From Halorubrum hochsteinianum (GTDB taxonomy: Archaea; Halobacteriota; Halobacteria; Halobacteriales; Haloferacaceae), in contig NZ_CP098415.1 in NCBI RefSeq assembly GCF_023702125.1, positions 2,294,001-2,358,000 of the forward strand: 64,000 nucleotides of DNA, in the 5' to 3' direction. The position numbers were made by a program, and so were the translations under genes. Positions 4,115 to 61,375 of the stretch are shown piece after piece. The notes beneath the pieces were generated by a model. That model saw only the letters and a program-made list of their open reading frames with translations, was not told where the DNA came from and did not search any database. The first letter of the stretch is position 1. Each line of letters begins with the position of its first letter.

Positions 4115-4300
4115 ACCCGCATTCGGGCGGGCGCGAGGTTAGGTGCTGTGGTTGTTGGTGGCGGTGTCGCGGTTGCCGGTGGCAGTCGCGGGACAAGCTG
4201 GCGTGTTCGGTACTGTGGTGCTTCGACGATTCGCCGAGGAACGCTTCCGAAGTTCCAGCCGCTCGCGTATGAATGTCTGCGGACGGATCGGCGGTGAACA

Positions 4301-4573
4301 TCTCCAAAGCCCCAGTCGCGCTCGACTCCCACAGCTCGCTGCGGTCCTCGTCGCTCACTGCGTTCGCTCCTGCGGTCCTTGCGTCGCTGGGGTTCGCCGA
4401 GCGCGACTGCCCCTTTGAGTCCCGCCCGCCCGCAAACGCCCAGCACCTCACGCCTCCCCAGCCTCGCGGTTCGCTCGGGGCTCCCTGCGGTCGCCCCTCA
4501 CTCACCGCGCCCCTCGCGCGTGCTCCTCGCGGCCACCTTCGGCGGCCACTCGGAGGCACGCGCCGACCGCAGT
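4301..4573 (+). repeat. Structured dispersed repeat, copy A
   Basis: A non-coding hairpin-rich element. Its first module is an outer 5-bp stem CAAAG (4305-4309) / CTTTG (4413-4417), a CCC/CCC internal loop, then a perfect 12-bp stem CAGTCGCGCTCG (4313-4324) / CGAGCGCGACTG (4398-4409) around a 73-base loop. After the conserved CCTCACGCCTCCCCAGCCTCG (4446-4466) comes a second module with arms GCGCGTGC and GCACGCGC, closed by CTGCGGTCG near 4484 and CGACCGCAG ending at 4572. Related copies lie at 12251-12541 and 61030-61375. The flanks of this 564-base gene-free gap (4115-4300 and 4574-4678) hold nothing else I can name except a TATA-like ATTATTTATAA at 4574-4584 and the palindrome CCACCGGTCGCCGGTGG near 4594-4612. 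Confidence 0.85.
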
Positions 4574-12250: not shown

Positions 12251-12541
12251 CCGCCGAAGCCCCAGCCGGGAGGCGGGCGCACGCTCGCTGCGCGCTTCAG
12301 TCGCTCACTCCGTTCGCTCCTTCCAGTGCTTGCGTCGTCATCAGAACGCGAAGCGTTCTGATTGGCTCACGAGAGCTTCGCTCTCGTGAACGCCTGCGCC
12401 CGCCTCCCGGCTGCCCCTTCGAGTCCCACCCCACACCGCAACCTCACGCCTCCCCAGCCTCGCGGCTCCCTTCGGTCGCCGCGTCCCTCGCGCGTGCTGG
12501 CTCGCGGCCTGTCGGCCGCTCGCAGGCACGCGCCACCGCAG
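12251..12541 (+). repeat. Structured dispersed repeat, copy B
   Basis: This is the same element as copy A. The outer stem is CGAAG (12255-12259) / CTTCG (12417-12421), then the CCC/CCC internal loop, then a perfect 19-bp stem whose arms are 12263-12281 and 12395-12413. The long loop carries two extra perfect hairpins absent from copy A: 9-bp arms with a GAA loop at 12341-12361 and 9-bp arms with a TTC loop at 12368-12388. CCTCACGCCTCCCCAGCCTC follows at about 12442-12461, then arms GCGCGTGC / GCACGCGC and the closing ACCGCAGT. The element fills most of the 479-base gap between two rightward genes; 12149-12250 and 12542-12627 show nothing further. Confidence 0.85.
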
Positions 12542-61029: not shown

Positions 61030-61375
61030 CTGTGCGGTGGCGCGCGCCAGCGAGCGGTCGCCCCCGGCGACCGCGACGCTGCGCCGCGCGAGGTCGCCGG
61101 CGCTGCGCGCCGACTGTCACCGGGGAAGCCCGGTTGCCCGAGGGACCGTGTCCCTCGCTGCCAGAGAATCTCCGATTCTCGCTGGAGTCAGTCGCCCGGA
61201 GCAACGCGGAGGTCGACTGACGAGGCTGGGGAGGAATGAGGAGCGGTCGCCGTGTGGGGTTGGACTCGAAGGGGCAGTCGGTTCCGGGAAGACGGCCGAC
61301 GTAAGCACCGCAGGAACGAGCATCGCGAGTGACGAGGAGCGCAGCGAGGCCATCCGGAACCGACTGGGGCTTCGG
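61030..61375 (-). repeat. Structured dispersed repeat, copy C (inverted)
   Basis: On the plus strand the outer stem is CGAAG (61267-61271) / CTTCG (61370-61374), then GGG/GGG and a perfect 13-bp stem CAGTCGGTTCCGG (61275-61287) / CCGGAACCGACTG (61354-61366) around a 66-base loop. CGAGGCTGGGGAGGAATGAG (61221-61240) is the conserved joint. Further left, smaller hairpins (61155-61190 area, e.g. GAGAATC/GATTCTC and AGGGACC/GTCCCT-type) replace the second module, which closes with GCGGTGGCGCGCGCC near 61034-61048. It occupies most of 61018-61443; nothing else is evident there. Confidence 0.8.

Follow-up and report, generated by a model that had tools for sequence, protein, structure and literature searches.

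The window analyzed here is a 64,000-nucleotide stretch of the Halorubrum hochsteinianum genome (positions 2294001-2358000 of the 2.96-Mb main contig; 3.06 Mb in total) that carries three copies of an intergenic repeat, designated copies A, B and C (Table 1). Copy A is flanked by genes for an aminotransferase and an AI-2E-type transporter. The first-pass annotation had proposed that the three copies share a single plan, and both direct reading and a covariance model bear this out. The parts it described are likewise all present: an outer stem that reads CAAAG/CTTTG in copy A and CGAAG/CTTCG in copies B and C (read directly), a CCC/CCC internal loop, variable and self-complementary main arms, and a conserved CCTCCCCAGCCTCG joint. 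That description is nevertheless incomplete, since it omits two further hairpins (II and III), a tandem head, covariation within an inner ladder and the mini-hairpins found in copies B and C.

Architecture of the element

The element is about 270 nt long and consists, from left to right on the + strand, of an optional head, domain I, a C-rich linker followed by the joint, hairpin II and hairpin III. Domain I, mostly 111-116 nt in length, is composed of a 5-bp outer stem, the CCC/CCC loop, a main arm of up to 19 bp and the inner ladder, in which covarying 2-bp stems are separated by T.T and TC/TC mismatches. The joint is exact in copies A, B and C, and both joint and linker are conserved among copies. 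Hairpin III terminates in (C)CACCGCA, and in many copies an AT-rich TTTATAA stretch is found 5-10 nt to the right of the element. By eye, the left ends (..ACCRCCGAAGCC) and right ends (..GCGCCACCGCA) form no evident inverted repeats, the exact boundaries being undefined.

Extra perfect mini-hairpins, whose arms are unique to each copy, are found at a few fixed places in copies B and C and at loci L042, L052, L053, L066 and L079. Two of them are inserted in the domain I loop of copy B (approximately 12336-12395, as judged from the fold), and those of copy C are inserted at 61190-61092.

Table 1. Positions of the parts of copies A, B and C within the window.
Feature	Position	Strand	Basis
Copy A, degenerate head unit (CCGAAGTTCCAGCCGC ... 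GATCGGCGGTGAACATCTC), about one unit	4248-4304	+	Comparison with head units of other loci
Copy A, domain I, outer stem CAAAG/CTTTG	4305-4418	+	Covariance model, 114.9 bits
Copy A, joint CCTCCCCAGCCTCG	4453-4466	+	Exact match
Copy A, hairpin II (CGCGGT ... ACCGCG)	4465-4509	+	Sequence; limits by eye
Copy A, hairpin III and right end	4516-4571	+	Sequence, copy comparison and fold; approximate limits by eye
Copy B, domain I	12255-12422	+	Covariance model, 59.7 bits
Copy B, joint CCTCCCCAGCCTCG	12449-12462	+	Exact match
Copy B, hairpins II and III to right end CCACCGCA	12461-12540	+	Sequence; approximate limits
Copy C, domain I	61266-61374	-	Covariance model, 102.2 bits
Copy C, joint CCTCCCCAGCCTCG	61221-61234	-	Exact match
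Copy C, hairpin II, mini-hairpin run, hairpin III and right end	61033-61220	-	Sequence; approximate limits

Upstream of domain I, many copies carry a head made of tandem 51-75-nt units that start with C[GA]AAGCCCCAGYCGC and often contain a TTATAA box. Unit lengths are 51, 54, 57, 63, 66, 69, 72 or 75 nt (for example at L004, L007, L019, L053, L080, L113, L192 and L257). Across 67 arrays, mixed-length arrays included, the spacing of head units is a multiple of three in 108 out of 108 cases; many units share descent, and the independent length changes number perhaps eight, none of them off the multiple of three. Coding by the head units was considered and rejected, since open frames are no commoner than in shuffled units. 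TTATAA-type boxes lie at about -30 or -38 from domain I and at +5 to +10 from the right end, in a genome that is GC-rich. These boxes were considered as putative promoters, but unit classes place them at different distances from domain I (-30, -38), which leaves that reading unproven.

Family size, distribution and gain or loss

Both blastn and the covariance model place copies A, B and C in a large family of intergenic repeats, far beyond what chance would produce. At least 40 copies are found in the genome by blastn, with E-values down to 1e-50 for non-self copies. A covariance-model search of haloarchaeal genomes, already envisaged in the first-pass annotation, proved productive: the domain I model, trained on 37 copies, gives 104 matches in the 3.06-Mb H. 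hochsteinianum genome (G000) and 102 in that of a sister species (G020). An element match is present in 106 of the 145 Halobacteria genomes sampled, representing 44 of 58 genera, and comparison of copies indicates that the plan persists in other genera. Records containing one exact 26-base piece of the element are almost all from Halorubrum. The earlier statement that the repeat belongs to no named family agrees with Rfam 15, which matches only tRNAs in the window and nothing over copy A up to E = 5. Our literature search, limited to open-licence papers, found no published description of the repeat. Taken together, the element is real, widespread and apparently undescribed; in outline it is of a known kind, that of MITE-like repeats with a conserved fold and an intergenic location, bcr1 and the PATEs among them.

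All 71 copies that were classified are intergenic according to a simple home-made gene finder, from which the gene limits around copies are approximate. Copies occur on both strands along the chromosome; an apparent chromosomal strand bias of pattern matches was dropped, as it rested on incomplete lists of matches. The orientations of the neighboring genes are mixed: divergent gene pairs enclose the fewest copies (10) and convergent pairs more (19). A right-hand gene that faces the element usually has its stop codon no more than about 40 nt from the right end, and one that faces away usually starts 40-120 nt from it. The 101-kb second contig of G000 (C2) contains none of the 104 covariance-model matches, an outcome with a chance probability of about 3% as estimated from its length. 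Copies are also found on five haloarchaeal plasmids; in the four of these that are annotated, no gene is listed beneath the match. A plasmid of Halobaculum sp. XH14 (L120) has two adjoining copies in inverted orientation at 2504-2971. Neither phage records searched by blastn nor viral contigs searched with one exact element pattern gave a match.

Most of the 39 genomes of the genus that were compared contain the genes on both sides of copy A. The element occupies the locus in G000, G020, G178, G067, G016 and G129, and many other same-genus genomes are element-free there, with about 17-120 bp between the aligned flanks, so that insertion polymorphism between related genomes is seen at this site. 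Because the flanking genes occur in other species without the element, copies are gained and lost, the presence/absence evidence coming from this one locus. On a tree of the flanks, whose branches are weakly supported, the occupied sites need three changes; a single origin followed by losses is a possible alternative history. No target duplication is seen between occupied and empty loci, where the intergenic DNA is too divergent for a base-level junction. Nearly all copies may be common to the sister species, and movement would therefore not be frequent. In G067, the copy A locus and its flanking genes occur twice on contig 1, at 1412612 and 2520251 (L151, L152).

Covariation, arm turnover and strand

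Domain I was compared among 100 distinct sequences. In total, 97.1% of cells pair compared with 78.4% in shuffles, with a covariation score of 0.462 against 0.144; the alignment is fitted to the covariance model and hence leans towards structure, and the margin over controls is very large. Double-sided changes affect 531 cells, compared with 157 in shuffles and at most 83 in slid structures, counts that are inflated by exchange between copies. Structures slid by 1-3 columns reach at most 45% pairing. Double-sided changes are seen in 23 of the 30 domain I pairs and all seven helices contribute to the covariation. Fixed mismatches are kept as well, the CCC/CCC loop in 257 of 260 copies and the TC/TC mismatch in 84 of 100 rows. 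These results support strong constraint on the structure or a structure-preserving process. In a multi-copy family, covariation alone is not proof of a functional RNA.

In all, 27 orthologous pairs were compared between G000 and G020. Among their 459 stem pairs, 420 are unchanged, 22 show double-sided Watson-Crick changes, 15 one-sided changes and 2 other changes. Domain I of orthologues is either near-identical or strongly altered: copy A is identical to its G020 orthologue over the 114 nt of domain I, and 13 of the 27 sites have a strongly changed domain I with 72-89% identity to the orthologue. In both genomes, all 13 strongly changed copies are closer to a paralogue of their own genome (0.88-0.96) than to the orthologue (0.72-0.89). 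The arms change block by block, and within a single copy each hairpin diverges on its own, as in the pair L084/L040, for which identity is 99% in domain I, 69% in hairpin II and 97% in hairpin III. Because changed copies resemble own-genome paralogues and hairpins vary independently, much of the arm turnover is exchange between copies. The pattern is the signature of hairpin-sized exchange between copies or of replacement of the resident copy. Ordinary homologous recombination is a possible route for the exchange.

The first-pass annotation had suggested selection or a copying process acting on structure, and had named covariation as a check. Covariation does exceed both the shuffled and the slid controls, and a copying process supplies much of the arm turnover; independent compensatory mutation at each copy accounts for little of the paired differences. 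For a few double changes, no donor is found among the copies compared. At L119/L051, two true double changes lie in arms that match no other copy compared (about 70% of the genome's copies). In the 15 pairs with domain I at least 90% identical, mean domain I identity is 97.4% compared with 91.5% at adjacent third codon positions, a hint of constraint that is only suggestive in a subset chosen for high domain I identity. More generally, the element offers a clear case of structure being conserved while stem sequence swaps between copies, and can help in telling selection for a fold apart from concerted evolution.

The mismatches within the arms also inform on the strand. In the main arms of 128 distinct stems, A.C mismatches in the + strand reading outnumber G.T by 53 to 13. 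This excess on the + strand places the wobbles on the opposite strand, reading GGGGCTTCGG. On that strand the internal loops are GGG/GGG and tandem GA, and as RNA it folds far better than shuffles (z -5.7) and also better than the + strand. Over the whole of domain I the asymmetry is weaker (34 versus 17 approximate events). In hairpins II and III the counts are symmetric and uninformative as to strand, and 83 copies did not pass the simple pairing walk used on hairpin II. Only 2.7% of cells are wobbles, a scarcity that suits folding of DNA or templated exchange no less than it suits RNA. The folding molecule may thus be single-stranded DNA or RNA.

Nature of the element

The search for a mobilizing enzyme covered PF01797 (the RAYT/IS200 Y1 transposase) and TnpB. 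Despite its 104 copies, G000 has no PF01797 candidate, and in three further genomes of the genus, all with saturating copy numbers, PF01797 had no match. Four TnpB genes were found in G000, three of them on contig C2, where the element is absent. A copy lies in the flanks of five of the 30 Halorubrum TnpB loci that were compared (L294, L310, L315, L316 and L317), apparently always on the 3' side. The distance between element and TnpB varies from roughly 300 to 1350 bp with no constant end position, and an origin of the element as a TnpB right end was rejected for lack of any constant position relative to the gene. Neither a mobilizing enzyme among those examined nor an autonomous copy was found; insertions need an enzyme beyond those found in G000.

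We give about even chances to the explanation that the repeat is an undescribed, non-autonomous, mobile-type haloarchaeal element selected for the folding of a single strand. Selection or element competence keeps the fold, fixed internal mismatches included. Sequence would be exchanged between copies through ectopic gene conversion or re-insertion at occupied sites, and a protein (a recombinase, a replication factor or an RNA-binding factor) would recognize not the arm sequence but the shape, together with the loops and joint that are conserved. Recognition by shape would leave the arms free to drift or to be swapped as long as they pair. A comparable principle is known from integron attC sites, where recognition depends on the structure of one folded strand and its fixed unpaired bases and leaves the arm sequence free. 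The likeness is a works-like analogy only: the element has three hairpins instead of one, and no gene cassettes are seen. More tentatively, the copies may represent a class-wide archaeal family in which the shape of one folded strand is recognized, with freely exchangeable hairpin modules, fixed purine-rich loops on that strand (GGG/GGG, tandem GA), a putative enzyme that would move or maintain the copies, and an untranslated tandem head with unit lengths in 3-nt steps.

Strong covariation in domain I, the better fold of the opposite strand, the 53 to 13 distribution of main-arm wobbles and TTATAA boxes at fixed distances to the left of domain I would all suit a structured non-coding RNA, dispersed as a family, that serves the host as a cis-acting UTR element or small RNA and is under selection at the transcript level. 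This is a possible reading with which several observations sit poorly. The mixed orientation to neighboring genes speaks against a fixed UTR element; few wobbles occur and their asymmetry does not extend to hairpins II and III; Rfam has no match; and loci in close relatives are element-free. A purely mutational origin, in which quasi-palindrome correction and gene conversion keep the arms complementary without selection for structure, would draw on the demonstrated exchange between copies, on the block-wise arm changes and on the perfect mini-hairpins with unique arms inserted in several copies. We consider it unlikely: simple palindrome correction would be expected to erase the CCC/CCC mismatch that survives between perfect stems, joint and linker are conserved, and the plan is maintained across genera.

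The strict Watson-Crick pairing with few wobbles, and the intergenic position of copies on both strands with none on contig C2, could reflect a DNA cruciform bound by a chromosome-organizing protein, with a host role at the DNA level. A cruciform is symmetric and predicts no strand preference, yet the main arms show one; the lack of copies on C2 has the chance expectation given above; and presence varies between close species, all of which makes this explanation quite improbable. Least credible of all, and in our judgment very improbable, is a derivative of IS200/IS605-type elements (PATE-like or REP/RAYT-like), either mobilized by a Y1 transposase or associated with TnpB. The palindrome-rich sequence, the lack of a visible target duplication and the copies apparently on the 3' side of some TnpB genes speak for it. 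The IS200/RAYT route is disfavored because PF01797 is absent from G000, with no match in the three other high-copy genomes of the genus either, and the TnpB link is countered by its variable distance and by the location of most G000 TnpB genes on the element-free contig.

Among described repeats, the PATEs/SMRs of Haloquadratum walsbyi are transposase-free, intergenic, high-copy and palindromic, with no target duplication reported (PMC3119063). Their core-deleted, terminal-only versions of about 52 bp (PMC3119063) are similar in size to the head units found here. In PATEs the palindromes lie near the termini and are akin to IS605-type ends (PMC3119063), unlike those of the present element, in which at least three hairpins fill the length, arms differ between copies and no constant Y1 or TnpB link is found. 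With TnpB proximity at five of 30 loci and no constant end position, we do not assign the element to the PATEs or to IS605-type sequences. REP sequences with RAYT transposases are intergenic palindromes present in more than 100 copies per genome (PMC2817692, PMC3116915, PMC12306157) and measure 20-40 bp with a tag tetranucleotide (PMC3733652); at about 270 nt, with several hairpins and no Y1 transposase in G000, the element falls outside this group. The bcr1-bcr18 repeats of the Bacillus cereus group are interspersed between genes and keep their secondary structure; the literature classes bcr1-3 as MITE-like and reports transcription for about half of the copies overall (PMC3446304, PMC2267715). 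These repeats are bacterial, have no known sequence relation to the haloarchaeal element and are shorter, bcr1 measuring 147-167 bp (PMC2267715).

With 104 copies of about 273-480 bp, the element accounts for approximately 1-1.6% of the H. hochsteinianum genome, and most sampled haloarchaeal genera carry the family. Cultivable Halorubrum strains make its expression, its movement and the recognizing protein accessible to experimental testing.
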